Shown here piece after piece: positions 246 to 36,380 of a stretch of 49,871 nt of DNA. Each line of letters opens with the position of its first letter. The stretch's first letter is position 1. The stretch is from the NCBI GenBank assembly GCA_013152275.1, contig JAADGS010000081.1, positions 1-49,871 of the forward strand, given 5' to 3'. The DNA comes from Actinomycetota bacterium (GTDB taxonomy: Bacteria; Actinomycetota; Acidimicrobiia; Spongiisociales; UBA4744). The position numbers were made by a program, and so were the translations under genes. Under the pieces are notes generated by a model. The model was not told the DNA's origin. It ran no database searches and saw only the letters and a list, made by a program, of their open reading frames with translations.

Positions 246-307
246 CTGCTGGTGAAGAGGCCGGTTGGTCCTCGCGTTTGTGGTTGGGTTCGACGAGAAT
301 CGTGGGT

Positions 308-1774
308 ATGGGAAACAACTGTGGTGATGAGACACTTTTCGAGGTGGCCGACGACGGTGTCCCTGTGGTGGGGAGGGTTCCTGCGGGGAGGTCGAAGGTG
401 TTCCGTCGTTACGATCCGGACCAGTCGTTCCTGATGCCGCCGTCTCTTGATGATTGGCTCCCGCAGGAGCATACGGCCCGGTTCGTTGGGGAGGTGGTTG
501 ACGGGTTGTTGGACCTGTCGGTGGTCTACGACTCGTATGTTTCAGCGTCTGGTGCGCCGCCGTATGACCCCGCAATGATGTTGAAGCTCCTGTTGTATGC
601 GTATTCGACGGGGGTGACGTCGTCTCGGGAGATGGAACGCCGCTGTCACGTCGATGTGGCGTTCCGTTGGCTGTCGGCGAATGCCGCTCCGGATTACCGG
701 TCGATCGCCCGGTTCCGTCGCCGTCACCTGGTGGCGTTGGACGACTTGTTCACCCAGGTGCTTGTCCTGTGCTTAGAAGCAGGACTCGTCACGTTGGGTC
801 GGGTCGCTTTGGACGGCACGAAGCTGCGGGCGTCTGCTTCTCGGCATAAGGCGATGAGCTATGGGCGTCTCGGACCCAGGATCGGCCAGCTTGAGGCCGA
901 GGTGGCGGCGATCCTTGCCGACGCTGAAGCCGTCGACCGTGCAGAAGACGAAGAGTTTGGCGAGGACCGGCGTGGTGATGAGGTCCCCCCAGAGCTTGCC
1001 CGTCGGGAGTCCCGTCTCGCCAAGCTGCGTGCAGCGAAAGAAGCCATCGAGGCCGAGGCCGCAGACAAGGCAGCCGGCAAGGCGGCCGGCAAGGCCGCAA
1101 AGGACGGCGCCGACGAGACCGGGATCAGCGAGGCGGCGGCGACAGCGGCTGCTGGGGCGACCCCCGCTGATCGGGCGCAACGGAGTTTCACGGATCCGCA
1201 AGCCAGGATGATGAAAACTGTTGACGGTTTCCATTACGCCTATAACGCCTAGGCCGTCGTCGACGAATACTCCCAAGTCGTCATAGCGGCGAACGTCACC
1301 GATCAGGCAGGCGACGTCGCGCAGCTCATCCCCATGATCGACGCTGCGACCGCCAGTCTCGCCGATGCCGGTATCGAAGCTGTCCCGAACATGTTTCTCG
1401 CCGATGCGGGCTACTGCTCCCAAGACAACCTGGAACAGATCTCGGATACGAAGGTCAACGCTTTGATAGCCACGGGGCGGATCAGACGTAACGAGCGGGT
1501 ACCCGACACGCCGAGAGGGCCGATCCCGAAAGACGCGACCCGGCGCGAACGGATGGCACGCCGGCTGCGTACCAAGACCGGGCGGGCCGACTACGCCAGA
1601 CGCAAAGCCATCGTCGAACCAGCATTCGGACAGATGAAAGTCCGCCAACACGCCGGACATCTCCGGCTACGAGGAATCGCCGGAGCGCAAGGCGAATGGA
1701 CACTGCATGTCATCTGCCACAACCTGCGCAAACTCGCCAACGCCGCCAACCCGGCACCGGTCGCAGCTACCTGA
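308..1774 (+). pseudogene. IS1182-family transposase, interrupted by a TAG stop
   Basis: The reading frame continues unchanged from 308 to 1774 except for TAG at 1250-1252. The first part carries the N-terminal transposase domain and the first catalytic Asp (VALDGTK). A Lys/Ala/Glu-rich linker follows. After the stop the frame resumes with AVVDEYSQVV, the second Asp (FLADAGY) and the catalytic Glu (VEPAFGQMK). In this family the interrupted motif normally reads YNAQAVVD, so a single C-to-T change (CAG to TAG) explains the stop. ATG 308 is preferred over upstream TTG 278 because it begins the conserved part. No frameshift is seen, so the lesion looks young. Confidence 0.85.
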
Positions 1775-4959: not shown

Positions 4960-7053
4960 TCAGGATTCGGGAGCACCGTTGGAGATCCAGTCTTCGATCA
5001 TCTGGATCTGTGCATCGGAAAGGCTTCCCGACGGTGGCATCGGGCCGCCGAAGTCCTGGGAGCCCAGGAGCTTTTGGAGCACGATACTGGCATCGGGGTC
5101 ACCCGGCACGATGACGGGAGCATTGTCGCCACTGGTCATCACCGACTGGTAGCTGGAGGCATCCCATCCTCCGAGAGAACCGTGACACATCGAGCAGTCG
5201 GCGTCGAAGAGAGGCTTGATGTCGGCGACGAAGGTCGGTTCCTCCGTGGCAGTTGTGGGCCCGCCGGCGAGGGTGCGAATGAATCCAACCAGGTCTTCGA
5301 TCTGATGGGTCGTCAGAACCTGCCCCCAGGCGATCATTGCCGTGGCGGGGTGGCCGAGCTGGATCGTGGTGATGATCTCGGAGTCGCTGTTCGCGTCCTG
5401 GAACGCCGGGTCGATGAGCGATGGGCCGATCCCGCCGGACCCGTCGGCTGCATGGCATTGCGAACAGAACTCGTCCCAAATCTGCTGCGAGCTTCCTGCC
5501 ACCTGCTGAGGCGCGATCTCGGGAGGCAGCTCGACCGGCGGGTTCTTCTCCCATGACCGCAGGAACGCGACGACTGCGTCGATCTGGTCTTCGCTGAGCG
5601 GGCCGCCCGAGGCAACGCCGAACGGCGACATTCCCAGATCCGGCTGGCCTTTCGTTATGATCGCTTTGATCGTTGCGTTGTCGTGGGTGCCGAGATACTG
5701 GCTGGCGCTGATGGGAACGATGACTCTCGTCGGGTTGGAGGGGAGTGGGCCGCCTTCTCCAAATTCGCCGTGACACATCGAGCAGTTCTGGGAGAAGATC
5801 CGCTGACCCACGACTTCCGGGGCTCCCTTCGCCACCTTGACCGTGTAGGCCACCAGGGCATCGATCTGCTCGTTCGTGAGGACGTCTCCCCAGATGGGCA
5901 TCGTTTCATGCTCGGTACCCTCGGAGATCGCCTTGTACGCCGCATCCACCGTCGCGGCCGCGGGTACCCGTTTCCCGTGACAGGATGAGCAGTGTTGTGC
6001 GAAGAGCTTGTCTCCTCCCGGAGCCGACGCCGGGTCGACAACATACCGGGCCAGGGTCACGATGTCCTCGTCGGGAAGCTGGCCCGACCAGGACGGCATC
6101 GTCCGATGTCGGCCGCCTTTCATGATGATCGAGCGAACTTCGGTCTCGTCGGAGACACTGACTCCTGTGCCGTGACAGGTCGCGCAGTTTGCCGCGAAAA
6201 GGCGTTGGCCGTCAGGAGCGATGAGGAAGTTGACGAGGGCCGTTACGGCCGAAGGGTCGAGTTTGACGCTCCAGTTGGGAACATCGAGACCCTCGTGCGG
6301 CGCGAAGCCGGCCTCGAGGGCATCGCGAAGCCGGAACGGATCCGACTCTGCGAGGTCTGTGGCTTGATGGCACTCGGCACATTCGTCCCGGAAGACAGCC
6401 CAGCCGTTTGGTGTGGTGATGAAACCGACGAGGGCGTCGATCTCGTCGACGGAGAGGTCGGCACCCCACGCTGGCATGCCTTCGTGGCTGCCTTGTGCGA
6501 TGACTGCGTGCAGGTCGGTCCCCGGAGGAACCGCCAGGGAGGGGCCATGGCATGCGGCGCAGTTGGCGGCGTAGAGGGCGGCGACCTTGTCGGGCTGCTC
6601 CTCGCCGGCCAGTGGTGCCTGTTGACGGAGTGCTTGCACGGTCAGTGCGACGACTCCCACCAGCACCAGAGCCGTCACGCCGGTGATGCCGAGGCGGTCG
6701 CGGTAGTGGCGTCGAGGAGATCGGTCGAGAAGGGGCAGCGCGAAGAGCAGGCCGACGGCGATCGCCGGGATGACGATCACGCCGATCACCTCGAGATTGC
6801 CTGGGAAATACTTGAGGAGCTGGAAGACGAACAGGAAGTACCACTCCGGTCGTGGCATGTATGTCGCGTCTGCCGGGTTGGCCCTTGCTTCGAGCGGCGA
6901 GCCGAAGAAGTAGGCAAGGGCAACCAGAGCGATGAACACGATGAACATGACGACGGCGTCTTTGAAGATCGCTTCAGGGAAGAAGGAGATGCCCTTCTTC
7001 TTCTTCTCTTCCTCGTATTCGGCGAGGTATCGGCGTCGTTCTTCTTCGTTCAT
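4960..7053 (-). CDS. cytochrome b6f-type subunit IV fused to seven cytochrome c heme motifs
   Basis: A 697-residue protein completing the quinol-oxidising cytochrome b. Residues 1-150 resemble subunit IV (the C-terminal half of cytochrome b), with membrane helices near 32-50, 90-110 and 125-145 and the quinol-site motif PEWY at 69-72. After that come seven CXXCH motifs, the first at 165-169 (CAACH), each in a class I cytochrome c fold with a distal Met-Pro-like GMPAW, TMPSW or TMPIW segment for several. The last repeat resembles the planctomycete-type cytochrome c. The heme part should face outward. ATG 7053 overlaps the cytochrome b6 stop by 4 nt and begins the conserved MNEEERRR; the upstream extension is frame shadow. 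Typical actinobacterial QcrC carries two hemes on a separate chain, so a seven-heme fusion to subunit IV is unusual. Confidence 0.9.
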   Translation of the reverse strand: MNEEERRRYLAEYEEEKKKKGISFFPEAIFKDAVVMFIVFIALVALAYFFGSPLEARANPADATYMPRPEWYFLFVFQLLKYFPGNLEVIGVIVIPAIAVGLLFALPLLDRSPRRHYRDRLGITGVTALVLVGVVALTVQALRQQAPLAGEEQPDKVAALYAANCAACHGPSLAVPPGTDLHAVIAQGSHEGMPAWGADLSVDEIDALVGFITTPNGWAVFRDECAECHQATDLAESDPFRLRDALEAGFAPHEGLDVPNWSVKLDPSAVTALVNFLIAPDGQRLFAANCATCHGTGVSVSDETEVRSIIMKGGRHRTMPSWSGQLPDEDIVTLARYVVDPASAPGGDKLFAQHCSSCHGKRVPAAATVDAAYKAISEGTEHETMPIWGDVLTNEQIDALVAYTVKVAKGAPEVVGQRIFSQNCSMCHGEFGEGGPLPSNPTRVIVPISASQYLGTHDNATIKAIITKGQPDLGMSPFGVASGGPLSEDQIDAVVAFLRSWEKNPPVELPPEIAPQQVAGSSQQIWDEFCSQCHAADGSGGIGPSLIDPAFQDANSDSEIITTIQLGHPATAMIAWGQVLTTHQIEDLVGFIRTLAGGPTTATEEPTFVADIKPLFDADCSMCHGSLGGWDASSYQSVMTSGDNAPVIVPGDPDASIVLQKLLGSQDFGGPMPPSGSLSDAQIQMIEDWISNGAPES

Positions 7054-7709
7054 TTCGATCGTTGTCGCTTCGGGGGCGCACTGATGCTGATGCGAACGAC
7101 GAGGAACAGGTGGATGCCGAGCAGCACGAGCAGCGCGGCCGGCAGCACCCAAACGTGGGTGCCGAAGAAGCGGGTCAGGGTTACCGCGGAGAGCTCGTCA
7201 CCGCCGCGAGCGACGCGAAGGAGCCACTCTCCGATGCCGGGGACGACGGCGATGATGCGAGTACCGACCGTGGTCGCCCAGTAGGCCTTCTGGTCCCAGG
7301 GGAGGAGGTAGCCGGTGAATCCGAAACCAAACACGATGAGCAGGAGCAAGACACCGGTGAACCACGTGATCTCCCGCGGGTATTTGTAGGCACCGTGGAA
7401 GATGACCCTGAGCATGTGCAGGACGGCGAGCAGCACCATCGCGCTGGCACCCCAGTGGTGCAGTCCCCGGATGAGCCAGCCCGCCGACACCCCCGTGGTG
7501 ATGTATTGGACACTGGCGTAGGCGTCCTGGGGACTCGGCACGTAGTAGATGGACAGCAGAATGCCGGTGACGATCTGGTTGATGGCCACGAACAGCGTCG
7601 CCGACCCGAGGGTGTACAGCCAGTTCACCTTCGGAATCTTGCGCAGGAAGAGAGTTTCCCAGATCCGGCGCCAGCCGGTGCGGTCGTCGATCCAGTCTGC
7701 GAGTGTCAT
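7050..7709 (-). CDS. petB: cytochrome b6-type quinol oxidase subunit
   Basis: A 219-residue membrane protein with four helices, forming the heme-binding half of the cytochrome b of a bc/b6f complex. Likely heme ligands are His84 and His98 (helix B, 14 apart) and His185 and His200 (helix D, 15 apart); the 15-residue spacing in helix D is the b6f-type pattern. The protein has no cysteine, so it lacks the covalent extra heme attachment found in chloroplast b6 and some Firmicutes. It is translationally coupled on both sides: 4-nt overlap with the Rieske gene before it and with the subunit IV fusion after it. Confidence 0.92.
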   Translation of the reverse strand: MTLADWIDDRTGWRRIWETLFLRKIPKVNWLYTLGSATLFVAINQIVTGILLSIYYVPSPQDAYASVQYITTGVSAGWLIRGLHHWGASAMVLLAVLHMLRVIFHGAYKYPREITWFTGVLLLLIVFGFGFTGYLLPWDQKAYWATTVGTRIIAVVPGIGEWLLRVARGGDELSAVTLTRFFGTHVWVLPAALLVLLGIHLFLVVRISISAPPKRQRSK

Positions 7710-8182
7710 ACGTCCCAGTGCACCTCGAGTTGTTCACCTTCGACGCGCACATCGAAGGATTCGAGTGGTTTTGGCGGTGGTCCATCGAGCACCTGGCCGG
7801 TTTTGGAGAATACACCGTTGTGGCAAGGGCAGAAGAACGACTGCTCTTTTTCGACCCACCGAACCCGGCAGCCGAGATGGGTGCAGACGTTCGAGAGTGC
7901 GAGGTAGTCGCGGCCATTGTCCGTGAGAACGTAGACACCCGTCTCCTCCGTCTGGGTGACCCAGCCGGTGGTGCGATCGATCTGTGCCTTGAAGAGAGTC
8001 GGGGTGCCCATCTCGACCTGTCGAGTCGAACCGATCGGGACCCAGACGTCCTCGAGGCCGTCCTTGGAGGCCGGAGCGACCACGTAGGCGATCGCGGGAA
8101 CGCCGAAGCCGGCGGCGATAAGCCCGCCGATGGCCGCAACCATCTTCGAAAGAAGTGTGCGGCGACTTAGATCATCAGTCAC
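7706..8182 (-). CDS. petC: Rieske iron-sulfur protein of the bc complex
   Basis: A 158-residue Rieske protein. The [2Fe-2S] ligands lie in CTHLGC (100-105) and CPCHNG (118-123). An N-terminal SRRTLLSK followed by a hydrophobic stretch (about 14-35) is a Tat-type signal anchor, as expected for a cofactor-loaded Rieske protein. The start is GTG 8182, preceded by GGAGGGG 8-9 nt upstream. It is the first gene of the bc module and has its own promoter-like sequence upstream. Compared with typical actinobacterial QcrA, which is over 300 residues with three helices, this is a short single-anchor form as in b6f or proteobacterial complexes. Confidence 0.93.
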   Translation of the reverse strand: MTDDLSRRTLLSKMVAAIGGLIAAGFGVPAIAYVVAPASKDGLEDVWVPIGSTRQVEMGTPTLFKAQIDRTTGWVTQTEETGVYVLTDNGRDYLALSNVCTHLGCRVRWVEKEQSFFCPCHNGVFSKTGQVLDGPPPKPLESFDVRVEGEQLEVHWDV

Positions 8183-8457
8183 TGTGGTTTCCCCTCCGCG
8201 GCCCAGAGTGTACGGCTTGGGACATCAGGAGGCCAAATGGCGGTCTATAACGCGGTGAGGGGTCCGATGGGACTCCTCATGGCGGCGTTCCCTGGCTTGC
8301 CAAGGCCGGGTTATACGGCGCCGCTGCCGGCGATGCCGTCGTGGGGTGTCTCGAGGACCCGGGATTTGTTCCGGGTGCAAGTCCGTCCTCCGCCGCACAG
8401 TCGTGGTACTCGTGCGAAGGAACTCCGTACGGCCGGGCTTGGTGCGAACGGGCACGT
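8183..8457 (-). other. 275-bp intergenic gap with hairpin and promoter
   Basis: The only sizeable gap in the minus-strand respiratory gene run. Near the end of the NHL gene a hairpin has arms ACCCGG (8357-8362) and CCGGGT (8371-8376). The promoter at 8207-8236 lies at the other end. No gene is seen in between. Confidence 0.5.
8207..8236 (-). promoter_or_regulatory. putative promoter of the Rieske-b6-subunit IV module
   Basis: On the minus strand TTGGCC (8236-8231) and TACACT (8212-8207) are separated by 18 nt, about 25 nt before the GTG start. This suggests that the bc genes can be transcribed apart from the upstream cytochrome genes. Confidence 0.5.
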
Positions 8458-9612
8458 TCAGGGTGTGGTGTCTGCGAATCGAACGAACGATTTGGCATAC
8501 AAGTTTGCCTCGCTCTTGTCCACCTGGGGGAGCCCGTCCAGGCGGAACAATGCAATTCGCCCGTTTTCGCGATCGGCGATCGCGAAGATTCCGTCGGGGC
8601 CGATCGCCAGCTTTTCGGGGAAGTTGAACGTGTCCTCGCCGGGCCCTCCTGCTCCGAACTCGCCGATGAGGTCCCCGTCGGGAGAGAGGACGACGATGTG
8701 GCCCTGGCCGGTGCATTTGTTCTGGAACCGGAACGTGTCGACGACATATACGTTGCCGTCGGGGCCGACGGCAACCGAGCGGGGTAGCTGCCAGAAGCCG
8801 ACGATTTGATTCTTCTCATCGGGTTGGCCCGAAACCCACAGCACCGTGCCTGTCTTGTCGAGGGCCACGACGCGCCGATTCAGCGTGTCTGCCACATAGA
8901 ACCGGTCCAGGTTCCGGTCGATGTCGAAGGCGTCCGGGAAGCTGAAGCCGCCAACCTCGCGAGACTTCTTTCCGGTTCCCCAGTAGTCGACGACCTTCCC
9001 GTCTCGGTCGAAGAAGTACAGACCGTCATTGCTCGAGACCACGATGAAAGCTCCCCACACGCGAACTTCGAACGGTGTGAATCCATCCTGGCCGAAGACG
9101 GAAGGATCCTGATCGGCCGCCGGATAGGACTCGATGTACCGGCCATCGCCGGAGAACACGAACACCTGGTGTGCGTTCCAGTCCGCGACGTACAAGCGGC
9201 TGCCCGTCTCATCGAAGGTAAGCCCGTAGGGGCTCGTCAGGCGTCCCTGGCCCGCTTCTCTGACGAAGGTGCCGTTCTCATCGAATTCCAGGAGCCGGGC
9301 GTGACCGGTATCGGCGACCCATACGCTGCCGTCGGGTCCGACCGTCACACCCATCGGACGCAGCAGTAGGTCCTCCGGCTTCGTTCCGATTCCGTAGATG
9401 GAACGTTCGATGGTCATCGGACATCCCTCCGCCTGCGCCGAGGTGTTCGAAGGGGGTGCCTCCGGTGGCCGCAGAAGGAACAGGATCAGAATGCCGAGAC
9501 CCACCGCCGCGGCGCCGAGCAAGGCGAGAAGCAGCCACAGCAGACGCCGCGAGGCCGTCGAAGTATCCGGTGTGCCCGGATCCTCCGCTGTGGGCTGTGG
9601 CGATTCGTTCAT
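8458..9612 (-). CDS. membrane-anchored NHL-repeat beta-propeller protein
   Basis: 384 residues: a short cytoplasmic tail, one membrane helix around residues 23-46, then an extracytoplasmic propeller of NHL repeats (for example PMGVTVGPDGSVWVADTGHA, SPYGLTFDETGSRLYVADWN, PRSVAVGPDGNVYVVDT). NHL propellers generally serve as protein-binding platforms; no catalytic residues are evident. Its start overlaps the TPR gene stop by 4 nt, so it belongs to the multiheme cytochrome operon. A scaffold or assembly role for the cytochromes is inferred from position only. Confidence 0.8.
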   Translation of the reverse strand: MNESPQPTAEDPGTPDTSTASRRLLWLLLALLGAAAVGLGILILFLLRPPEAPPSNTSAQAEGCPMTIERSIYGIGTKPEDLLLRPMGVTVGPDGSVWVADTGHARLLEFDENGTFVREAGQGRLTSPYGLTFDETGSRLYVADWNAHQVFVFSGDGRYIESYPAADQDPSVFGQDGFTPFEVRVWGAFIVVSSNDGLYFFDRDGKVVDYWGTGKKSREVGGFSFPDAFDIDRNLDRFYVADTLNRRVVALDKTGTVLWVSGQPDEKNQIVGFWQLPRSVAVGPDGNVYVVDTFRFQNKCTGQGHIVVLSPDGDLIGEFGAGGPGEDTFNFPEKLAIGPDGIFAIADRENGRIALFRLDGLPQVDKSEANLYAKSFVRFADTTP

Positions 9613-10268
9613 GATCCCTCCGTTGTCGTAGGAGAGCCCCCGAGGCGTCTTATGGCGTCGAGGGCTTCTTCACTATCAGGGTTGAAGTCTGCGGCGCGCC
9701 GGTACTGTTCGAGGGCGCCGGCGGTATCACCAAGCTGCTCCAGTGCCTGACCGAGGCCGAAGTGGGAACTGAAGTCGAATGGAAAGTCGGAGATGGCGTT
9801 CTCGTATGCCACCTTCGCTCCGGACGCGTCGCCGCGTGCCAGCAGGAAATCCCCGAGGGCCACCAGCGGTGCGAACGCGCGAGAACGCGGGGCCGCATCG
9901 GCGCTCCGGTTGAGGTAGTCGATGGCGGTGTCGGGATCGGTGTCTCTGGCGAGGAGACCGAGCTGGAACAGCGCCATCCAGTCGTTCGGATCCAACTCGA
10001 GCGCATCATGGAAGGCCTTGGCGGCTGCGGTTTCGTCGCCTGCGTCGAGATAGGTGAGGCCAAGTCCGGTGTGGGCCCAGGCCGATGGCTTCTCGTCGAT
10101 GCGTGCCTGCCAAATGGCAGCGTCTCTCGCCGCGGCGGTGGCGGGCGGTTTCTCCGGGCGAAGCTGGAGTACCACCGTGACTGCACCGAGGCCGAGAACG
10201 ACGAGCGTGAGCGCAACGACGGCGATCAGGAGCCCTTGAGGGACGGATCCGGACGAAGGTCTCGCCAT
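9609..10268 (-). CDS. TPR-repeat protein with membrane anchor
   Basis: 219 residues with an N-terminal membrane helix (about 12-33) and three to five tetratricopeptide repeats, for example GLTYLDAGDETAAAKAFHDA and GLGQALEQLGDTAGALEQYR. The layout resembles the periplasmic TPR part of CcmI/NrfG, which present apocytochrome for heme attachment. Start codon ATG 10268 overlaps the preceding stop by one base. Given neighbours with many heme sites, a role in cytochrome assembly is plausible, but it is an inference. Confidence 0.75.
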   Translation of the reverse strand: MARPSSGSVPQGLLIAVVALTLVVLGLGAVTVVLQLRPEKPPATAAARDAAIWQARIDEKPSAWAHTGLGLTYLDAGDETAAAKAFHDALELDPNDWMALFQLGLLARDTDPDTAIDYLNRSADAAPRSRAFAPLVALGDFLLARGDASGAKVAYENAISDFPFDFSSHFGLGQALEQLGDTAGALEQYRRAADFNPDSEEALDAIRRLGGSPTTTEGS

Positions 10269-10915
10269 TACGGCTGCGCTCCATCGTCATGCCGGACGAG
10301 CGTCACGGAGGCTCGTTGCTCCTCCAGCCAGGAACGGTAGGCCTGCTCCTTCCTGTCTTTTTCGAGCTGGTCCCGAATGTCATTCTTCACTTCGAGCAAC
10401 GGCTGGTCTCCGAAGTCGCCTTTGTGCGCCTCGTAGTACGCGGCTATCTCGTCGTCGGACACCGAGACATCCTTCACGATTTCGGCGAACACGAGCGATC
10501 CCACGAGCTGAAGTCTGATGCGCCGCTTCAGCTCCCTCCGATCGAGTCCGAGGTTCTCCATCCAGGCTTTGAACTCCTTGGGTGAATCGAACTTACTCTG
10601 CATGGAGTCGAACTCCGCATCCACGTCTTTTGCGGACACGTCGATGCCGACCCGTTCGGCCTCCTGTTCGATGATGATGTCGTCCACGAGCGATTGAAGG
10701 GCCATCTCACGCCACTGTTGGGGATCCGTGACGGCTCCACCGTGCATCGACGTGAGGGTCGAGAGTCTCCGATCCAACTCGGAGCGGTGAATTGGCACGC
10801 CGTTGGCCTCGGCAACAACAGGACCGGATCGCAGCAGCGTGGTGGCTGCAAACGCGATCCCGACCGCGATGGCGACGGCAACGGCCGAGAGGATCAGGAT
10901 GGTTCGGCGTTTCAC
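10268..10915 (-). CDS. SurA/PpiC-type exported chaperone domain protein
   Basis: 215 residues: a signal anchor (about 5-28), then a SurA N-terminal-like helical domain (VAEANGVPIHRSELDRRLS, SLVDDIIIEQEAERVGI, VSDDEIAAYYEAHKGDF). The parvulin isomerase domain that usually follows is missing, so it is probably a chaperone without isomerase activity. It starts with GTG 10915, overlapping the upstream cytochrome stop by 4 nt. Similar small chaperones accompany multiheme cytochrome clusters in metal-reducing bacteria, which supports a folding role here. Confidence 0.75.
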   Translation of the reverse strand: MKRRTILILSAVAVAIAVGIAFAATTLLRSGPVVAEANGVPIHRSELDRRLSTLTSMHGGAVTDPQQWREMALQSLVDDIIIEQEAERVGIDVSAKDVDAEFDSMQSKFDSPKEFKAWMENLGLDRRELKRRIRLQLVGSLVFAEIVKDVSVSDDEIAAYYEAHKGDFGDQPLLEVKNDIRDQLEKDRKEQAYRSWLEEQRASVTLVRHDDGAQP

Positions 10916-11763
10916 GGTTCTCCTTGTGTTTTTGATTTGCGCGGGAAAGCCGGCAGGTCACGGAGAGGGATCTTCCCGCCGGCATGGCAGGCGTCCGAGC
11001 ACCAGCGGGTCGTGTGACAGCTCGTGCAGGGACCTTGGGTAGGTTGGACAGTCGAAGTGCCGTGCGTCGCCACCCAATCCTCGGGATGCGAGACGTCGTG
11101 GCAGGCCTCGCACGTTGCCCGCTTGTGACAGGCGGCACAGGCGCCCGGGTCGCTGCCGTCGAACGGTGCCGCATCGACGAGGCCTCCGTGATGATCCCCG
11201 ATGGTACCTGGGAGATGGCACGTGTCACAGTCGGGCGTCGCCGGTCTCGGGTAGCCGAACAGGAAGAAGTGCCCCACGGATCCGGGTGTGTGACAGGTGT
11301 CGCAGAGTGATGGATCTTTCACATCGTGACAATCGGCGCAGGTGTCTTCGGGTGGAGGCAGTGGTTCGGGGTGGAGCGTGTCGGTATGGCAGGTCGCACA
11401 GGCGACACCCAATGAGGCGTGCTCGGCATGGTTCAACAAGAGATCGCCGAAGCGGCGCTGCTGCGCGTAGTCGGCGTGGCACTCCAGGCAGGAAGCGAAG
11501 TCCTGGTCGGCCGAGGGTGCCGGACGGAGTTTCCACAAGGGTTGCACCCAGTTGTCGAACAGCGACGAGCTCCACGAGATTGCCCGCTCGGGGATTCCGG
11601 AGCTGGTGTCCGTTCCGCTCCATGTCGCTGCCGCGCGCTCGACGGTTATCCCCAGGTCGTCGCGGAACGTGGGCGACACGGAGATCGCGATGATCAAGGC
11701 ACCCTCGATGAGAATGAGGATGAGGGCTGCAAGCGCAACCAGGAGTGCTCTTCGTGAGGTCAC
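10912..11763 (-). CDS. membrane-anchored multiheme cytochrome c, 8 CXXCH plus one CX3CH
   Basis: 283 residues with one N-terminal helix (about 7-30). Eight CXXCH motifs follow (CLECH, CATCH, CADCH, CDTCH twice, CAACH, CEACH, CTSCH). Near the C-terminus CSDACH is a CX3CH spacing that could hold a ninth heme. Heme sites are spaced closely, every 12-30 residues, as in the NapC/c3-like superfamilies of electron-transfer cytochromes. GTG 11763 overlaps the preceding cytochrome stop by 4 nt. The protein should be anchored in the membrane with hemes outside. Electron partners are unknown. Confidence 0.88.
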   Translation of the reverse strand: MTSRRALLVALAALILILIEGALIIAISVSPTFRDDLGITVERAAATWSGTDTSSGIPERAISWSSSLFDNWVQPLWKLRPAPSADQDFASCLECHADYAQQRRFGDLLLNHAEHASLGVACATCHTDTLHPEPLPPPEDTCADCHDVKDPSLCDTCHTPGSVGHFFLFGYPRPATPDCDTCHLPGTIGDHHGGLVDAAPFDGSDPGACAACHKRATCEACHDVSHPEDWVATHGTSTVQPTQGPCTSCHTTRWCSDACHAGGKIPLRDLPAFPRKSKTQGEP

Positions 11764-12563
11764 GGCTTGTCTCCCATCTGGAAGAGACGCTGCTCACGGT
11801 GCACGGCGTGGCGCGCATGGCACGCCTCACATTCCACCCGTTCGTGGCACGTCGTACACGCTGCGGTACCTGTGATCTCGACGCTGCGATAGTGCTCGGC
11901 AAGCCACGTGTCGGCATGGGGGATGTCTGTGCCGTGGCATCCCGCGCAATACGAAGGCTGATGGCAGAGTTCGCACGCGTCGACTCCGACGGTCTGCTGT
12001 ACGGATCCGTGGGTTGTCTGCCAGTCGGCGGGATGCGGTATCTGGACGCGAACGTGGCACGCGGTGCAGAACTTCGGCGTATCGTGGCACGCCGCGCACT
12101 CATCGGGAGCATCGAGCGCCGCGGCCCCATGGGTGAAGGTGAACTGGTCTGGATGTGGTCCGGACTGGAGGTCGACCTCCAGGTGGGCGGTGTTGCCGTG
12201 ACACGTGGTGCAGTCGGCTTCTGCTTTGGGATGGTGCTCCATCTCGGCGAGATCGTGACACGTCGTGCAGGGTTCGGAGGCCAGCACGTCTTGGGCGAGG
12301 TTCAGGCCTGTCGCCTTGGCCGCCAGCTCGCGCGGCAGCGTCGGCAGGTACTCGATGACACCCAGAAGCCCTGGGCGCGTATGACAGGCCAGGCAGGGCA
12401 CCTGATCGTGCACCGCCACGGCGGCGGATGCCGTCGCGGTTTCGTGGCAGGAGCCGCAGAACGACTGTGACGCCGGAGCCCTGGTCAGTCCCGAGAGCAG
12501 CACGATTGCCACGACGCCGCCCAGTACGGGGAGCCACCACTTGATCTTGAACCGGCGCGCCAT
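11760..12563 (-). CDS. membrane-anchored decaheme cytochrome c
   Basis: 267 residues from ATG 12563, which follows an AGGTGG closely; an in-frame GTG two codons earlier is an alternative. One N-terminal helix (about 9-26) is followed by ten CXXCH motifs (CGSCH, CLACH, CTTCH, CTTCH, CAACH, CTACH, CELCH, CAGCH, CTTCH, CEACH). About ten extra His residues give likely bis-His ligation. It is paralogous in layout to the decaheme protein encoded before it: both contain the HPADW motif after a CTACH site. Confidence 0.88.
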   Translation of the reverse strand: MARRFKIKWWLPVLGGVVAIVLLSGLTRAPASQSFCGSCHETATASAAVAVHDQVPCLACHTRPGLLGVIEYLPTLPRELAAKATGLNLAQDVLASEPCTTCHDLAEMEHHPKAEADCTTCHGNTAHLEVDLQSGPHPDQFTFTHGAAALDAPDECAACHDTPKFCTACHVRVQIPHPADWQTTHGSVQQTVGVDACELCHQPSYCAGCHGTDIPHADTWLAEHYRSVEITGTAACTTCHERVECEACHARHAVHREQRLFQMGDKP

Positions 12564-12569
12564 GGCCAC

Positions 12570-13382
12570 CTACTTGTCGGTCTGGGGGTGGCGAGGCCGG
12601 TCGGCCTCCAGATTCTCTTCCCCGGTCGTGTGGCAGCGTACGCAGGTGGCGGGTTGGTGACAGGAAAAACAGGTGTTGTTGGCGGAAGTCTGGACGACGC
12701 TCGGGTGGGTCGCCTTCCAGGAGACGTCTGCACCGCCTTGGGGATGGTGGCAGGCGTCGCAATCGTCCCGGGATCTCGATGCTTCCAGCTGATGGCACTT
12801 GGCACAGGTTTCTGGTCCCGCCTCGAAGAACGCGAGCGGGTGGGTGCTGGTGGCCCAGTCTGCAGGATGAGGTATCTCGACCCCGTGGCAGGCCGTGCAG
12901 AATTGTGTCGTGTCGTGGCAGAGCGTGCAGCTCTCCGCGTTCGCCTGAAGGCCCACTCCGTGTTCGGTCGCCCATCGGTCCGCATGGCTGCGCGGAGACG
13001 GGATGAACGAGAGGCTATGGCATAAGGTGCAGCGGCCGGGGGCGAAGGCGGCGGGCGTCTGACCATGACACGCGAAGCAGCGATCCATGGAGGGAGTGAC
13101 CCCATGGTCGGCAGGGTCGTGGCACTGGGAGCAGTTGGCATTCGAAACCGCGAAATGCGCCTTGTGGGTGAACGTGGGGAGAGGGGCGACGTCGCCCGCC
13201 GTCAGGGATTTGTCGAGGTTCTCGTGGCACTGAGAGCACTCCTTGAAGGCCGGCAGATCTGCGGCGGCCGGAGGGCTCGTCGAGGTTGGTGAAGCCGTCT
13301 CCACCTGCTGGCGCTGAAGGAGGAACCATCCTCCAACCGCAGCGAGGAGAATCAACACGGCGACGGTGAGCTTGCGCGCCAT
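12570..13382 (-). CDS. membrane-anchored decaheme cytochrome c
   Basis: 270 residues with an N-terminal anchor (about 5-22) and ten CXXCH motifs (CSQCH twice, CFACH, CTLCH twice, CTACH, CAKCH, CDACH, CFSCH, CVRCH). It is the first cytochrome after the Rrf2 regulator, 6 nt downstream of its stop, and so probably the first product of the regulated operon. A GGAGG lies about 10 nt before ATG 13382. The CTACHGVEIPHPADW stretch is shared with the next decaheme protein, showing a duplication. Function as an electron-transfer protein is sure from the heme motifs; direction and partner are inferred. Confidence 0.9.
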   Translation of the reverse strand: MARKLTVAVLILLAAVGGWFLLQRQQVETASPTSTSPPAAADLPAFKECSQCHENLDKSLTAGDVAPLPTFTHKAHFAVSNANCSQCHDPADHGVTPSMDRCFACHGQTPAAFAPGRCTLCHSLSFIPSPRSHADRWATEHGVGLQANAESCTLCHDTTQFCTACHGVEIPHPADWATSTHPLAFFEAGPETCAKCHQLEASRSRDDCDACHHPQGGADVSWKATHPSVVQTSANNTCFSCHQPATCVRCHTTGEENLEADRPRHPQTDK

Positions 13383-13388
13383 CGTCGA

Positions 13389-13796
13389 CTAGGCCTCCAT
13401 TCCTGTGCTTCCGTCCAGAAGGTCGCCGAAGCTGACATCGAAGGCTTCGATGATCGCACGCTGGGCTCGAGCACATACGGGCTTGAGCGCACAGTCGTCG
13501 CTCCGGTCGCAGCTGCACGGATCTCCGACGCAGTAGTTGACCGTGAAAGGGCCTTGGATGGCCTCGATGACTTCGAGGACGGTGATTGAAGCAGGTGAGC
13601 GAGCCAGTGTCACACCACCGCCGACACCACGCCGAGTGGTGACGATGCCCGCCCGAGCCAAGGTGGAGACGATCTTGCCGAGAAACGCCGTCGGCACACC
13701 TTGTGCCTCCGCGATCTCGCCGGTGCCTGCGTGCCCGCGCCGGGCGATTTCCAAAACGCACCGCAGCGCGTAATCAACCTCGCGGGTCATCACCAT
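13389..13796 (-). CDS. Rrf2-family Fe-S cluster transcription regulator
   Basis: 135 residues. The N-terminal MTREVDYALRCVLEIAR and the winged helix LGKIVSTLARAGIVTTRRGVGGGV are typical for Rrf2 proteins. C-terminal cysteines at 96, 102 and 108 have the C-x5-C-x5-C spacing that holds an Fe-S cluster in IscR and NsrR; further Cys at 89 and 94 are present. ATG 13796 is chosen because GGAGA lies 6 nt before it. It heads the minus-strand cytochrome operon, so it probably controls that operon in response to oxygen, nitric oxide or redox state. Which signal cannot be decided. Confidence 0.9.
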   Translation of the reverse strand: MVMTREVDYALRCVLEIARRGHAGTGEIAEAQGVPTAFLGKIVSTLARAGIVTTRRGVGGGVTLARSPASITVLEVIEAIQGPFTVNYCVGDPCSCDRSDDCALKPVCARAQRAIIEAFDVSFGDLLDGSTGMEA

Positions 13797-13849
13797 GATG
13801 AGTCTCCAACCTCTGCATATCAGTCCTGACGGCGTATCGGACATCAGGG

Positions 13850-13879
13850 AGCCTAGGTCGGCTGCTCCGGACGGAGCAA
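13850..13879 (-). promoter_or_regulatory. putative promoter of the rrf2-cytochrome operon
   Basis: Minus-strand TTGCTC (13879-13874) and TAGGCT (13855-13850) are spaced by 18 nt and lie about 55 nt before the Rrf2 start codon. Confidence 0.5.
13863..13878. promoter_or_regulatory. palindrome TGCTCCG-GA-CGGAGCA, candidate Rrf2 operator
   Basis: A perfect 7-bp inverted repeat with a 2-bp centre that overlaps the predicted -35 box. Its position is ideal for autorepression by the adjacent Rrf2-type regulator. Whether that protein binds it is inference. Confidence 0.45.
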
Positions 13880-14022
13880 GACCGAAGGACCCCGATGTGG
13901 GATCAACGGACCTTCCATGTCGTTGAACACTCCGTGTGTTCGGGAGCCGGTGACCGGGAACCGGATGGTGGTCATGAGGTTCCGGCCACGAGTATGCCAG
14001 GACTCGACCGTGACGGTTCGAT

Positions 14023-14044
14023 GCCGGCCTTCGCCGGCCGGCAC
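14023..14044 (-). terminator. hairpin after the 11-heme cytochrome gene
   Basis: TGCCGGCC and GGCCGGCA pair perfectly around a 6-nt loop, 22 nt beyond the stop of the minus-strand gene ending at 14066. No T-run is evident, as is common in high-GC genomes. Confidence 0.6.
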
Positions 14045-14065
14045 ACTCTTGGATGGCCGTTGCCT

Positions 14066-16429
14066 TCAAAAGTTGCTGCTCCCGTGATAGTGGCACTTCG
14101 TGCACGCGCCGGGGTTCCGCGAGTGCCTCATGGGGAAGCCACCATGACAGACGAAACAGAAGTTCTGCGCGAAGTCGGACCACGAGACCCATAGCGCGTC
14201 GAAGTTGGTGAGCGTTCCGGTCCGTGCACCGTTGGGACTCACCATGTTCTCTTTCAGCATGTAGGCGTTGGAGGAACCGTGGAAGTCATGGCACGCGGTG
14301 CAGGCGAGATTGCCGGAGCCGTTGGGACCGTGCCTCGCACTGTTGTTCCAGTTCGCGGCGGTGAACCTGTCGTGCGGACGTCCGTCGGCGTCGGTGGACG
14401 CGGTGTCATCGACGAGCCGGATGTCGTACGGAACGGTCGCTCCTGCAGAGATCGGAGCGGTCGTCGTGGGATCGATGTGGCACTTTTCGCAGAACGAGGC
14501 GATGTCACCTCGGGTGAGATCGGCCGATCCGGTATCCCAGTTGACGATCCACTTGGTGGTGATGTCGGAGGGATCGACCAGCTTGGACGTCGAGGCGCCA
14601 TCGTTTTGATCCGCGAGGTGAGGGTTATGGCAGGAGACGCACTCGACCTGACGTGTGCCCCCGTCCTGGTCGGCGGCCGCGATTGGATGGTGGTAGATCC
14701 TGATCGGATTCCCATCGGCCGTTGTCGTGTCGTTGACGGCGGCGGCGAATGCGTCATAGGGATTGGTGCCTCCGGACGTGTTCGGCGTGGTGGAGGTGTG
14801 ACAGGTGAAGCAGGTCTGCTCCTCGTCGGCGATGGTGAGAGCGTTGAAGTCGGATCCATGGGGTTGATGGCACTCGAGGCACTGGATCTCTGCCTTCGCC
14901 GGGTCCTTCGCTATCAGCAAACCGTGGGCGCTGGCGTCGAATGGGCTGTAGTCCCATCCCTTCAGACCCGGGTAGGGCGCTCCCGACCCGTGGCACGTGT
15001 AGCAGTAGGTGTTGCCGATGGGAGATGCCGTGGGGGAGTAGAGCCATGTGCTGCCGTTCCACACCCGGAGCAACTCGGTCATCTCGGATCGGAGCCTGTG
15101 TGGCGTGTGGCAGTCGGTGCAGGTGAGTTCGTAGCCGTCCGTGGCTGTGGGTACGGGATGGTATGACGTCTTCGTGGACGCTCCGATGACGCTCTCTCCG
15201 AATGCGGACTTGATGTCGGTCGAAGCACCGGTGCCGTCGTGGCACTGATAGCAGGTTTCTTTCTCGGTGGGCCGGGCGAACAGGTGGATCGGTGCGGAGG
15301 CTCCGTGGACGCTGTGGCAGTTCTGGCAGAGATTGGTCGAATCGGAGTATCCCCCATGAGGGTCGGTCACAGACGCCGCTGCATACAGTGACAAGTGGGC
15401 CATCTGCACGGTCACGGTGCCGGCGGCCACGTCGACACTGGCGGCGCCGGTGGTGACCCACCGATCCGAGGACCACACTTGGACAACGGTCGTGTCTTCG
15501 GGGTATCCGGAGGGCAGCGGGTATTCGGGGGGAATCTCGAAGGCGAGGGCAAGGGTGGCCGGTGCCGACGGGTCGAACCGTGTGCCGGACGGACCGAGTT
15601 CGAAGGAACGGGAGACCAGTGTCCGGTTCGTGTTCGCATCGGGCGGGTGGGGGATCTGGCGGATCGTGAACACGGTGTCCGAGTCCACTGCGCCGGCTGG
15701 AATGTGGAGGGCCACGGTGCCTGTCGTCGGCACCAGATCACCGCCCTCGGGTCCCACCGTCTGTGCCATGGCGACATTGTCCGACGAGACCACGGATGAT
15801 GGATTGCTCCGATTGCCGGCAAGATCGATGGCGATGACTCTGTAGGAGTAGATACCCGGCGCCGGAGGCACGTCCCGCAGCTCGGGGACGGCTGTCGTGG
15901 AGAGATCGGTCCACGGACCGCGTGCGTCTGCCGACCGCTGAACGAGCCAGGTCACCACGTCGGGGTCGTCGGGTTCAGACCATCTCACCCAGTTGTCCCG
16001 TGCGGCCGTGGCGGACACGTCCTGCGGGGATGCCGGCGGCCCGTCGTCGTTCCCCTGACGCTGTGATACCACACGGACGGTGAAGACCTTCTCGTAGTCG
16101 GGAGCGCTGACCGAGAGTTGGTAACGGCCCGCCGGTACCTCGGCCCCCGTTGCGGTGCGTCCTCTCCACGTGAACGCATAGTTGCCCTCGACCGTATGGA
16201 CCCATTGGAAGACGGGGGTTCCGCCCTCGGCTCGCACGGCAAACGTCACCGGCATCGCGGCCTGCGTCCGTACACGGACGGTTGCCCAATCGTGACTCGG
16301 AGCGACCACCGTGGTGTTGCGCGCGGACACCGTCGGGACGGTTCCAGGAGCCGTGACCATGGCTGTGGCAACAAGAGCGATAGCCAGGTAGAACATAGGG
16401 CCCAGAACTCCAGACCATTTTGGTCGCAT
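14066..16429 (-). CDS. secreted 11-heme cytochrome c with Ig-like N-terminal domains
   Basis: 787 residues. A signal peptide (first about 36 residues, ending VSA) is followed by a FlgD-like Ig domain (FTWRGRTATGAEVPAGRYQL), a fibronectin type III-like domain, and a ZU5-like domain (VGPEGGDLVPTTGTVALHIP). From about residue 370 come eleven CXXCH motifs, several in doubled-CXXCH style (CQNCHSVHG, CLECHQPHG, CTACHDFHG). Start ATG 16429 is preferred because GAGGGG precedes it and the signal peptide begins there. Such large extracellular cytochromes with adhesive domains serve as terminal electron-transfer proteins at the cell surface in metal reducers; here that is inferred. Confidence 0.87.
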   Translation of the reverse strand: MRPKWSGVLGPMFYLAIALVATAMVTAPGTVPTVSARNTTVVAPSHDWATVRVRTQAAMPVTFAVRAEGGTPVFQWVHTVEGNYAFTWRGRTATGAEVPAGRYQLSVSAPDYEKVFTVRVVSQRQGNDDGPPASPQDVSATAARDNWVRWSEPDDPDVVTWLVQRSADARGPWTDLSTTAVPELRDVPPAPGIYSYRVIAIDLAGNRSNPSSVVSSDNVAMAQTVGPEGGDLVPTTGTVALHIPAGAVDSDTVFTIRQIPHPPDANTNRTLVSRSFELGPSGTRFDPSAPATLALAFEIPPEYPLPSGYPEDTTVVQVWSSDRWVTTGAASVDVAAGTVTVQMAHLSLYAAASVTDPHGGYSDSTNLCQNCHSVHGASAPIHLFARPTEKETCYQCHDGTGASTDIKSAFGESVIGASTKTSYHPVPTATDGYELTCTDCHTPHRLRSEMTELLRVWNGSTWLYSPTASPIGNTYCYTCHGSGAPYPGLKGWDYSPFDASAHGLLIAKDPAKAEIQCLECHQPHGSDFNALTIADEEQTCFTCHTSTTPNTSGGTNPYDAFAAAVNDTTTADGNPIRIYHHPIAAADQDGGTRQVECVSCHNPHLADQNDGASTSKLVDPSDITTKWIVNWDTGSADLTRGDIASFCEKCHIDPTTTAPISAGATVPYDIRLVDDTASTDADGRPHDRFTAANWNNSARHGPNGSGNLACTACHDFHGSSNAYMLKENMVSPNGARTGTLTNFDALWVSWSDFAQNFCFVCHGGFPMRHSRNPGACTKCHYHGSSNF

Positions 16430-16502
16430 ATGCACGGAAACCCCTCGGCTTGCTGGCCGCGGGCAGTGTACCTGCACGGTGTTCTCGCTGCCACCCTCCG
16501 TG

Positions 16503-16532: not shown

Positions 16533-16667
16533 TGCACCATAAGAGGACACCATTCCATGGGGTTATTTTGGAGTGAAAAAGTCGGATTTACGAAGAGGTA
16601 GGGTCCGAGAAGGGATTTGGGGTATGCTGCCGACAGGCGGTATGCCACCGAGAGACGGGAGGCCATT

Positions 16668-17715
16668 GTGAGAGGGAAGTGGAGAATCTGGCTGCTGGCA
16701 TGTCTGGGAGCCGTATTCATCCTTGCGCTTGGATCAGCCGCTTCGGCACAGCCGGAGCAAGCCGACCCAGTCGGAACCAACGTGGCGCCTCACGGGGGGT
16801 ACTCGTCGTTGACCAACCAATGTCTGCAGTGCCACGATGTGCATGACGCTGCCGGACAGTATGCCTTGATGGAAAAGGCGAGCGTCAGCGCAGTGTGCAA
16901 CACGTGTCACGCGCCCGGCAGCACGACCGCGCCGACCGGTGGTCCGGGCGGCGGTATCACGGGGACCGTGTCCTCGCGAGCGGTGTACACGGAAACGGGT
17001 GGCAGCGAACACACCCCGGGTGTGAATAACATCGATGGCAATACGTTGACCCAGTCTGCATGGTCCTATCCCGGGCCGCCGACTGGTAACTCGGGGGTTG
17101 CCGCAGGCATCGGAACGACGAGCGACACCGACGGTGGTCTCTACTGTGCGTCGTGTCACACGCCGCACGGTACGTTTGGCCAGGTCGTGAACGACTGGAC
17201 GAAGGCGGCCGATGAAGGCACGTCGATCTCGGTCGACAACGGCGGGGCACCGCTGATTTGGACCACCAAGTGGCTCGACTACGACGAGAGATGCGTGGGC
17301 GTTCTGCGCCAACTCGGGTGACGTCATCACGGCAACCGGCGGCAACGAGTCCTGCATGAGCGCAGGCACCAGCGGTTCGTCGTGGGCGACGGTGCTGGAT
17401 GCCGCAGGCGTGACCAAGTCACTGTTTGCGTACAACCTGCTGTCTGCCGGTCCGAACCATCAGTACTCCCCGGGACAGGCGACATTCAGGACCGTGAACG
17501 AAGGTACCGACGTATATGACTGGTGTGCGACTTGCCATACGAGCAAGGTAGATACGGCGCACAACCACTACACGACGTGCTACGCGTGTCACGGGAATCC
17601 GAGCAACGATGTGAATTCGGACGACTTCCCGCATACGAGCACCGCCGACACCTTGTTGAAGGAGTATCCGGACGGGTTGTGTCTGAACTGTCATACATCG
17701 GGCAGCTTGCCATAG
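16668..17715 (+). pseudogene. secreted hexaheme cytochrome c, frameshifted
   Basis: GTG 16668 follows GGGAGG at 5 nt and begins a signal peptide ending ASA. Three CXXCH motifs (CLQCH, CNTCH, CASCH) are read up to about 17288. There one extra base (A in GACGAGAGATGCG) moves the frame; the next frame continues with DAWAFCANSGDVIT and three more motifs (CATCH, CYACH, CLNCH) to the stop at 17715. Restored, the protein would be about 349 residues. The first heme region, HGGYSSLTNQCLQCHDVH, closely matches that of the divergent 11-heme protein. The single-base shift may be a real mutation or an assembly error. Confidence 0.8.
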
Positions 17716-34472: not shown

Positions 34473-34479
34473 AAGGAGG
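34473..34479 (+). promoter_or_regulatory. AAGGAGG ribosome binding site of the formate dehydrogenase gene
   Basis: A full Shine-Dalgarno 5 nt before ATG 34485; it fixes the start of the catalytic subunit, which therefore lacks the usual N-terminal Fe-S domain. Confidence 0.8.
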
Positions 34480-34484
34480 TGCGT

Positions 34485-36380
34485 ATGCATCGAGATCGGC
34501 TCACCCGCCCGCTCGTCCGGGAAGATGGGGTTCTTCGACCGGCATCATGGGACGAGGCGCTCGACAGAGCAGCCGGCGGCATTCAGGCCGTCACCAGTCG
34601 GTACGGTCCGGGAGCGTTCGGGGTGATGAGCTGTTCCAAAGGCACCAACGAGATGAACTACCTCGCACAGAAGTTCGTCCGTATGGCCGTTGGCACCAAT
34701 ACGATCGACTCGTGTAACCGTACCTGACACGCTCCCAGTGTCGTCGGTCTGGCGACAGTGTTCGGAGCAGGTGGCGGAACGAGTTCCTACAGGGAAGCCG
34801 AGGACACCGGCCTCATCGTCCTGTGGGGCTCCAACGCGCGCGACGCACACCCGATCTTCTTTCATCATGTCCTCAAGGGGATCCGCCACGGTGCAAAGCT
34901 GATCGTCATCGATCCCAGGCGCAGCTCGTCCGCGACGTTCGCCGATCTCTGGCTCGGTCTGGACGTTGGATCCGACATCGCCCTTGCCAACGCCGTCGGG
35001 CGCGAGATCATCACCGCCGGCTTGCACGATCGCGAGTTCATCGAACGCGCCACGAGCGGCTTCGATGATTACCGGACCGCCGTGGACGCGTGGACGCTGG
35101 ACCGGGCGGCGAACGTCACCGGCGTTCCTGCAGATGCGATCTCCGAGCTCGCCCACGCCTACGCGCTCGCGCCGACGGCCCAACTGTGCTGGACTCTCGG
35201 CATCACCGAGCATCACTGTGGGACCGACAACGTCTTCTCACTGATCAACCTGGCATTGCTCACCGGACACATCGGCCGGTGGGGATCCGGTCTGGTTCCC
35301 TTGCGGGGCCAGAACAACGTCCAGGGAGGAGCGGACATGGGTGCGCTTCCGAACAAGCTCCCCGGCTTCAAGGACGTGTCGGACGATACGGAGCGGGCCC
35401 GGTTCGAAGCAGCGTACGGTACGAAGCTGCCGGCCGAACCGGGATGGCACATCTCGCAGATGTTCGACGCGATGGAACGTGAGGATCTCAGGTCCCTGTA
35501 CATCATTGGAGAGAACCCGGCACAGTCCGAAGCCGATGCGACGAGGGTGCGCAAGCTTCTCGCCGGCCTCGATCATCTCGTCGTGCAAGACATGTTCCTC
35601 ACCAAGACGGCAGAGCTTGCCGATGTGGTCCTGCCGGCGGCGGCAGGCTGGGCCGAGACGGACGGCACCTTCACCTCGTCGGAACGTCGGGTGCAGCTCG
35701 TGCGAAGAGCTTTGGATCCGCCCGGTGAGGCGAGAGACGACCTTGTGATCATCGCCGACCTTGCCGCACGCATGGGCTGTGACTGGGGCCATCCGGTTGC
35801 AGAGGAAGTGTGGGATGAACTGCGGGGGCTCTCTTCGATCCATGCGGGAATGAGCTATGAGCGTCTGGCATCTCACGGCGGTCTTCAATGGCCGTGCCGC
35901 GACACGGACGATCCCGGTCGGCCGTTCCTTCACGGCCGTCTCTGGGACGATCCGGTGACCGGCCCCAAGGCACCGTTCACGCCCGTCGAGTGGAGTCCCC
36001 CCGTCGACCGGCTCGACGAGGAGTTTCCCATCAGGCTGACCACGGGACGCCGACTCGATAGTTACAACACCGGTGTGCAATCCGGACGGTACTCGTCGCC
36101 GAAGCGATGGGGTGAGAGCATCGATCTCTCACCGGAGGACGCCGCCGCCCTCGGGCTTGCCAATGGCGATCTGGCGCGTGTCACGTCGAGACGTGGATCT
36201 GTCGAGGCGCCCGTACGCACCGATCCCAACCTGAGACCGGGCCTGGCGTTCCTGACGTTCCATTTCCCCGATCAGGTGGACACGAACGTGCTCACGTTGG
36301 ATGCGTGGGATCCCAAGTCGGGAACGTCCGAATACAAGGCGACGGCGGTCAGGATCGAACGGCTTGGAGAGCCCTCATGA
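34485..36380 (+). CDS. fdhA: formate dehydrogenase catalytic subunit, selenocysteine (UGA) at residue 81
   Basis: 631 residues if TGA 34725-34727 is read as selenocysteine. The frame is uninterrupted on both sides and the context CNRT-U-HAPSVVGL is the Sec/Cys active site of molybdenum/tungsten formate dehydrogenases. Later motifs are the bis-MGD binding ones: LIVIDPRR, PLRGQNNVQGGADMGALP, IGENPAQSEAD, LPAAAGWAETDGTFTSSERR, and the C-terminal molydopterin-binding domain with LTTGRRLDSYNTG. The enzyme oxidises formate to CO2 or reduces CO2. The normal N-terminal [4Fe-4S] domain is absent: the protein starts at HRDRLTRPLVRE, and the missing piece is the C-terminus of the gene at 38134. The stop overlaps the next start by 4 nt. 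Confidence 0.9.
34725..34757 (+). promoter_or_regulatory. UGA codon and SECIS-like hairpin
   Basis: TGA at 34725-34727 is followed after 11 nt by a hairpin with arms TGTCGTC (34739-34745) and GGCGACA (34751-34757) and the loop GGTCT. The E. coli fdhF SECIS also has a GGUCU apex, beginning at the same distance (19th base) after UGA. SelB recognises such an apex. Confidence 0.8.

Follow-up and report, generated by a model that had tools for sequence, protein, structure and literature searches.

In Geobacter, the extHIJKLMNOPQS "bc complex" cluster (GSU2940-GSU2930) joins a Rieske protein, a cytochrome b6, and a subunit IV to 10- and 12-heme cytochromes (PMC5877670, PMC2825233, PMC6148476). This cluster is conserved in the six Geobacter genomes that have been compared, with its members found at higher abundance on Fe(III) (PMC2825233, PMC5877670). 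Related quinol-oxidizing complexes serve other respirations: QcrABC drives anaerobic respiration in Campylobacter (PMC6195509), and in Methanoperedens a Rieske/cytochrome b complex with pentaheme cytochromes has been proposed to serve nitrate reductase (PMC4683180). A different kind of cluster is described for Dethiobacter alkaliphilus, in which multiheme cytochromes of Fe clusters are co-encoded with NHL and TPR proteins (PMC10376724).

We analyzed a 49,871-nucleotide stretch of DNA (the window) that lies on one contig (C81) of a 3.07-Mb genome of 100 contigs. A WhiB gene in the window (45313-45612) marks the host as a member of the Actinomycetota. Omp85 was absent from the host genome; the same search was positive in seven diderm control genomes. 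Hence, the cell is probably monoderm, in keeping with the monoderm or thick-walled cell of the original prediction. With moderate confidence, we read the locus described below as a modular electron conduit across the wall of this monoderm actinobacterium, charged here by a Q-cycle menaquinol oxidase.

Re-deriving genes, strands, spacings, and heme counts, we found the minus strand unbroken from an Rrf2 gene (position 13790) down to position 4960, as expected from the ten closely packed genes with one 275-bp gap that had been proposed. From 16477 to 4960, the order on this strand is a secreted 11-heme cytochrome, Rrf2, cytA, cytB, cytC, SurA-N, TPR, NHL, Rieske, b6, and subunit IV-c7. Rrf2 and cytA are 6 bp apart, and cytA abuts cytB. 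Overlaps of 4 bp join cytB to cytC, cytC to the SurA gene, TPR to NHL, and Rieske to b6; SurA and TPR overlap by 1 bp, and b6 overlaps the ATG of subunit IV-c7 by 7 bp. The 275 bp between NHL and Rieske are thus the sole exception to overlaps or gaps of ≤6 bp from Rrf2 to subunit IV-c7. CxxCH motifs number 10 each in CytA and CytB, 8 in CytC, 7 in subunit IV-c7, and 11 in the secreted protein, far above the counts in composition shuffles (mean, ≤0.11; maximum, 2). Downstream of the operon and close to where the contig begins lies a transposase with a DUF772 domain, in two ORFs (278-1771, plus strand).

The Rieske [2Fe-2S] protein (7706..8182, minus strand; Pfam Rieske, E = 5.1e-13) has a Tat-like SRRTLL start and an intact cluster motif, CTHLGC ... 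CPCH. Cytochrome b6 (7050..7709, minus strand; Pfam Cytochrome_B, E = 3.1e-51) is of the four-helix type by sequence, hydropathy, and Pfam, with four hydrophobic segments and two pairs of b-heme histidines 14 and 15 residues apart. Subunit IV is separate and carries PEWY; its gene (4960..7056, minus strand) fuses a b6f-type subunit IV with three transmembrane segments (Pfam Cytochrom_B_C, E = 1.2e-10) to seven class-I c-heme domains (Cytochrome_CBB3, E = 1.9e-66; repeat alignment). These intact motifs bear out the quinol-oxidizing core that had been predicted. Since the Rieske motif, the b-heme histidine pairs, and PEWY are all present, the complex should oxidize menaquinol by a Q-cycle with proton translocation, as is established for the Rieske/cytochrome b family. 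A covalent heme cn cysteine is typical of b6f and of Bacillus Qcr but not of bc1; the b6 of the window lacks any cysteine and hence a covalent heme cn. It also falls below the cutoffs of the NCBIfam b6 and ExtP models (222 bits for ExtP; cutoff, 290). Across the other genomes of a 296-genome phylum set, nothing matched the fusion of subunit IV to seven c domains at E ≤ 1e-30; its only ortholog was in a sister species (G001, locus L014). A scan of named genomes with subunit IV-c7 yielded matches to the c domains alone, in two unrelated MAGs.

Cells attach c-type hemes on the outward-facing side of the cytoplasmic membrane. CytA (12570..13382), CytB (11760..12569), and CytC (10912..11763), all encoded on the minus strand, each have one predicted N-terminal membrane helix. 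In CytA, all ten heme motifs are invariant or nearly so across 12 homologues (30 to 76% identity). CytC has a CX3CH site in addition to its eight CxxCH motifs; because this site is kept in 5/5 homologues, nine is the better heme count. Motif counts and Pfam thus confirm three anchored multiheme cytochromes with 10, 10, and 8 to 9 hemes, together with TPR, NHL, and Rieske/b6/heptaheme proteins. Relatives of CytB have a weakly NapC/NirT-like N terminus (best E, 1.8e-4), a lead that CytB might also be in contact with quinol. A weak profile match (8e-6) links part of the CytC chain to PDB 6i5b, which we take to be OcwA. Structure models of CytA and CytC reached pLDDT values of only 63 and 45, and a fold search with the CytA model gave no significant match; hence, we make no claim about the fold of either protein.

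The 11-heme cytochrome upstream (14066..16477, minus strand; Pfam Paired_CXXCH_1, E = 1.8e-24) had no match in a PDB search. Its N-terminal part scored 26.0 bits for ZU5 (cutoff, 21) and 26.2 bits for FlgD-Ig (cutoff, 27). The sister species has lost most of the Ig/ZU5 region by deletion, and other relatives lack it altogether; all keep the 11-heme core. A secreted protein with 11 hemes and an Ig/ZU5 region is therefore present here as proposed, but the adhesive part is not a conserved feature. In reading the window, we noticed no pilin or S-layer gene. Divergent to it, and missing from the original prediction, is a secreted 6-heme cytochrome (16617..17712, plus strand) whose frame is broken into two overlapping ORFs with three hemes each. 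Its homologues are intact at three loci (L015, L016, and L038, the last in the host itself), and the frameshift may be a true mutation or an assembly error. The three anchored cytochromes, the secreted 11-heme protein, and the complex-bound heptaheme domain hold about 47 hemes in all.

Three further minus-strand genes complete the block: a SurA-N-like chaperone (10268..10915; Pfam SurA_N_3, E = 3.6e-14) and a TPR protein (9609..10268; Pfam TPR), both conserved in relatives, and an NHL beta-propeller (8458..9612; Pfam NHL, E = 4.2e-25) that is 48 to 85% identical to its counterparts in relatives. Each has one N-terminal hydrophobic helix as a predicted anchor. The SurA-like protein has the N-terminal chaperone domain of SurA but, according to Pfam, no confident PPIase domain, so that the earlier assignment holds for the N-terminal domain only. 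By analogy, all three are likely folding and scaffolding partners, a role proposed for the NHL and TPR proteins of Dethiobacter (PMC10376724). Looser multiheme-TPR-NHL clusters recur in many further members of the phylum, indicating that the association of these protein types is general.

The Rrf2-family regulator (13389..13790, minus strand; Pfam Rrf2, E = 1.1e-30; NCBIfam rrf2_super, 94.6 bits, cutoff, 73.3) has Fe-S cluster-type cysteines. Such a gene adjoins the six-gene block from cytA to NHL in four genomes and precedes it in a fifth. A scan for consensus promoters and terminators did no better than shuffles. By comparison with the sister species, we detected an operator-like perfect dyad, TGCTCCG-NN-CGGAGCA (13863..13878), 73 to 88 bp before the Rrf2 start and just upstream of a -10-like TAGGCT. 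The sister species conserves the dyad, and no second exact copy occurs in the host genome; two more distant relatives (G007 and G028) lack it. Its position, conservation, and uniqueness suggest that Rrf2 regulates its own expression from this putative site. Together, the cysteines, the placement in five genomes, and the dyad favor the proposed control of the block by an Fe-S regulator.

Comparison with related genomes, which the original prediction had called for, revealed the six-gene block cytA-cytB-cytC-SurA-TPR-NHL, complete and in identical order, in five genomes: that of the window, the sister species (G001, L014), G007 (L015), G028 (L016), and the distant G269 (L074). Among 149 genomes, cytC occurred in the host and three relatives, namely, G001 (same genus; 77%) and G007 and G028 (same order, another family; 42 to 43%), and in 3/3 of these the 11-heme gene and Rrf2 precede cytA. 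A phylum-wide profile search with CytA matched 47 of 396 genomes, many of them through general multiheme similarity; strong full-length matches came from G158, G269, and G417. In G269, a 6-heme gene precedes the block. A sixth genome, G417 (L075), has on fragmented contigs Rrf2, a HemA-like gene, a 6-heme gene, cytA, and cytB, with cytC on another contig. The G269 and G417 cassettes lie with genes that we assigned by eye as Ccm-like and heme-biosynthesis-like, and within their order cytC occurred in only one genus among 27 genomes. This patchy distribution is as expected from horizontal spread or frequent loss. No cassette was found in plasmid searches. Judged by gene order, the six-gene block is a portable cassette.

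What follows the cassette differs between lineages. In the window and the sister species, it is Rieske/b6/IV-c7. In G028, a nonaheme cytochrome and a b561-type cytochrome b begin 147 bp after NHL; in G007, these two are joined by a NapC-like hexaheme protein, and a transposase-like gene is inserted after NHL. The host itself has a second, decaying cassette copy (L038, 10550-12940, on contig C26) with frameshifted remnants of Rrf2 and cytC, no cytB, and open cytA, SurA, and NHL frames; it adjoins a nonaheme/b561/NapC-like hexaheme block. A third such block lies on host contig C92, where a gene read by eye as menD is found near a quinol module and where decaheme and octaheme lipoprotein cytochromes stand in tandem nearby (L042, 9111-12703). 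In the distant G158, an independent operon has 6-heme, Rieske, b6, IV/1-heme, and cytA genes in a row, downstream of ccmA, ccmC, ccmF, and ccmH (identified by eye). Unlike the b6 of the window, that of G158 has one cysteine at the expected cn place, and the two are 47% identical, consistent with Rieske complexes having joined CytA-type decahemes on separate occasions. Thus, the single quinol-to-surface operon originally envisaged stands as to its quinol-oxidizing core and conserved cassette, but the Rieske block is specific to one genus and another quinol-oxidizing block replaces it elsewhere. We concluded that the pathway is better described as a modular cassette than as one fixed operon.

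Under our preferred reading, the Rieske, b6, and IV-c7 proteins would form a complex whose Qo site oxidizes menaquinol, with one electron sent back to the quinone pool via the b hemes in a proton-motive Q-cycle. The other electron would pass from the Rieske centre to the seven-heme arm on subunit IV and then to CytA, CytB, and CytC, which we picture as multiheme "wires" anchored in the cytoplasmic membrane and exposed on its outer side. Anchored SurA-N, TPR, and NHL proteins would assist folding and scaffolding, and Rrf2, acting at the dyad in front of its own gene, would probably regulate the cassette. Transport of electrons through the wall and past it would fall to the secreted 11-heme cytochrome, together with surface lipoprotein cytochromes whose genes lie at other loci. 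Two proteins are candidates for the surface terminal: the 11-heme cytochrome and, by linkage, a decaheme lipoprotein. In G028 (L016), the gene for the homologue of the latter, 61% identical to the decaheme on C92, lies ~2.5 kb away from the 11-heme gene at the head of the cassette. Two observations count against the conduit: the locus itself encodes no recognized terminal reductase, and the seven-heme fusion is limited to the genus of the window.

Sequence cannot give the direction of electron flow, which we consider likely to be outward. The same hardware could run in reverse, with electrons entering from Fe(II) or another outside donor, the Rieske complex reducing quinone for biosynthesis, and nitrate, or O2 via cytochrome bd, as the acceptor. 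The bc complexes can operate backwards, the host class is probably Acidimicrobiia, which include known iron oxidizers, and the host has nar genes and cytochrome bd. However, the Calvin cycle is typical of many Fe(II) oxidizers, and of this cycle we saw no sign in the host: its RuBisCO match is, on reading by eye, a RuBisCO-like protein rather than form I or II. Moreover, in relatives the same cassette is attached to NapC-like/cytochrome b561 modules of the quinol-oxidizing kind. We therefore regard reversed flow as unlikely. Elsewhere in the window, molybdopterin oxidoreductase genes and a NuoG-like Fe-S protein gene (34479-38937, plus strand; formate-dehydrogenase-like, with a seemingly split catalytic ORF) possibly constitute an electron donor module.

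Improbable to a similar degree is a role for the Rieske complex and cytochromes in serving a soluble extracytoplasmic reductase, of nitrate, nitrite, or similar, rather than an extracellular solid. Methanoperedens offers a precedent, in that its pseudoperiplasmic nitrate reductase and pentaheme cytochromes are paired with a Rieske/cytochrome b complex (PMC4683180), and a soluble acceptor is possible given the narHJI genes on host contig C63. A 12-heme lipoprotein with two NrfA-family (Cytochrom_C552) stretches (L038, 298-2229) also lies beside the second cassette on C26; it is a possible surface reductase. Yet we recognized no soluble reductase at any cassette locus examined, so that the fixed link to a dedicated enzyme that would speak against the original prediction was not seen. 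The nar cluster comes with a cytochrome b of its own, encoded ~6 kb from it on C63, and about 47 hemes in five cytochromes far exceed what such a reductase needs. Around narHJI (L039, C63, 40000-59900), we also noted cytochromes with one or two hemes and a GltD-like FAD/Fe-S oxidoreductase, whose pairing with cytochrome b recalls anammox Rieske/cytochrome b complexes. As to oxidases, cytochrome bd, which takes quinol directly, was the only one detected in the host. We also considered a Rieske complex feeding a heme-copper oxidase, for which PF00115 had no match in the host; this result is weak, as the control missed Corynebacterium glutamicum, which carries an aa3 oxidase, and it does no more than suggest that the host lacks a heme-copper oxidase.

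The exchange junction coincides with the 275-bp gap after NHL (8183..8457, minus strand), where the window and the sister species share in part a promoter-like TTGGCC-18-TACACT. Because of this conserved stretch, two transcription units, one on the NHL side and one on the Rieske side, are as likely as one, and the Rieske block may be transcribed apart from the cassette. Least probable is a chance adjacency of two separate systems, the Rieske/b6/c7 block and the cassette: the gap with its promoter-like sequence and the exchange of the block at the same place in relatives would fit, but every cassette of the order with readable flanks is followed or faced by a quinol-oxidizing module, and in G158 Rieske/b6/IV-c immediately precedes cytA. 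In the distant G269, no quinol-oxidizing module directly follows NHL.

In extracellular respiration, most of the known quinol oxidases (CymA, CbcL, and ImcH) do not pump protons. Returning to the trans-wall conduit, we tentatively propose that a proton-pumping Rieske/b complex is hard-wired to it through the seven-heme arm, giving energy-conserving (Q-cycle) extracellular respiration, and that the cassette is a portable module that takes different quinol oxidases in different lineages. If this is true, coupling an anchored heme wire to a Q-cycle complex would alter the energy yield credited to extracellular respiration and would explain how it can benefit thick-walled cells. Because the cassette stays constant while the quinol oxidases beside it are exchanged at a single junction, the function of each module can be tested directly; in metagenomes, the cassette can serve as a marker for candidate electroactive Actinomycetota.

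Of the known systems, Geobacter ext is the closest precedent for a Rieske/b6/IV core coupled with multihemes; it shares with the window a Rieske protein, a b6, and a subunit IV-like protein encoded with multiheme cytochromes, and it is linked to extracellular reduction. It belongs to diderm cells and includes the porin ExtI and the rhodanese ExtH, whereas the locus described here has no such genes and its host no Omp85. The window instead has single-membrane-anchored cytochromes, seven hemes fused to subunit IV, SurA-N/TPR/NHL proteins, and a b6 that, by its score, is outside the ExtP family. A porin-cytochrome conduit of the Mtr/Pcc type is likewise not evident, with no porin gene among the locus genes and no Omp85 in the genome. 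Bacillus-type QcrABC and b6f-type complexes share the Rieske protein, the split cytochrome b (b6 plus subunit IV), and a c domain fused to subunit IV; the window differs in having seven c domains rather than one and a b6 without the cn cysteine. Methanoperedens and anammox bacteria also combine Rieske/cytochrome b with multiheme c-type cytochromes, some with CX3CH in Methanoperedens, but their hosts and partner proteins differ, and the anammox complexes have NAD(P) oxidoreductase subunits (PMC4683180, PMC12954380). Among Gram-positive-type cells, the closest precedent is found in the Dethiobacter clusters, which share with the window several multihemes, NHL, and TPR; the extracellular electron transfer cytochromes of Thermincola and Carboxydothermus also come from Gram-positive-type hosts. 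As to a homologue of the cell-surface terminal reductases OcwA/OmhA, CytC gave the weak profile match to OcwA over part of its chain, and the 11-heme protein gave none in the PDB. In the portions of these two reports available to us, quinol oxidation is assigned to CymA-, ActA-, or CISM-type proteins rather than to Rieske/b, and the fixed A-B-C-SurA-TPR-NHL cassette is not described (PMC10376724, PMC7829351). Like the window, OPB41/Anaerosomatales are Actinomycetota with clustered multihemes, proposed there for Fe(III) reduction; unlike it, they have no Rieske module or NHL or TPR cassette reported in the accessible part of that study (PMC9686372). From its gene content, the system thus appears to join a quinol core like that of Geobacter to a multiheme/NHL/TPR conduit of the monoderm kind and to add an extended heptaheme arm, so that a system of known kind now reaches a new lineage.
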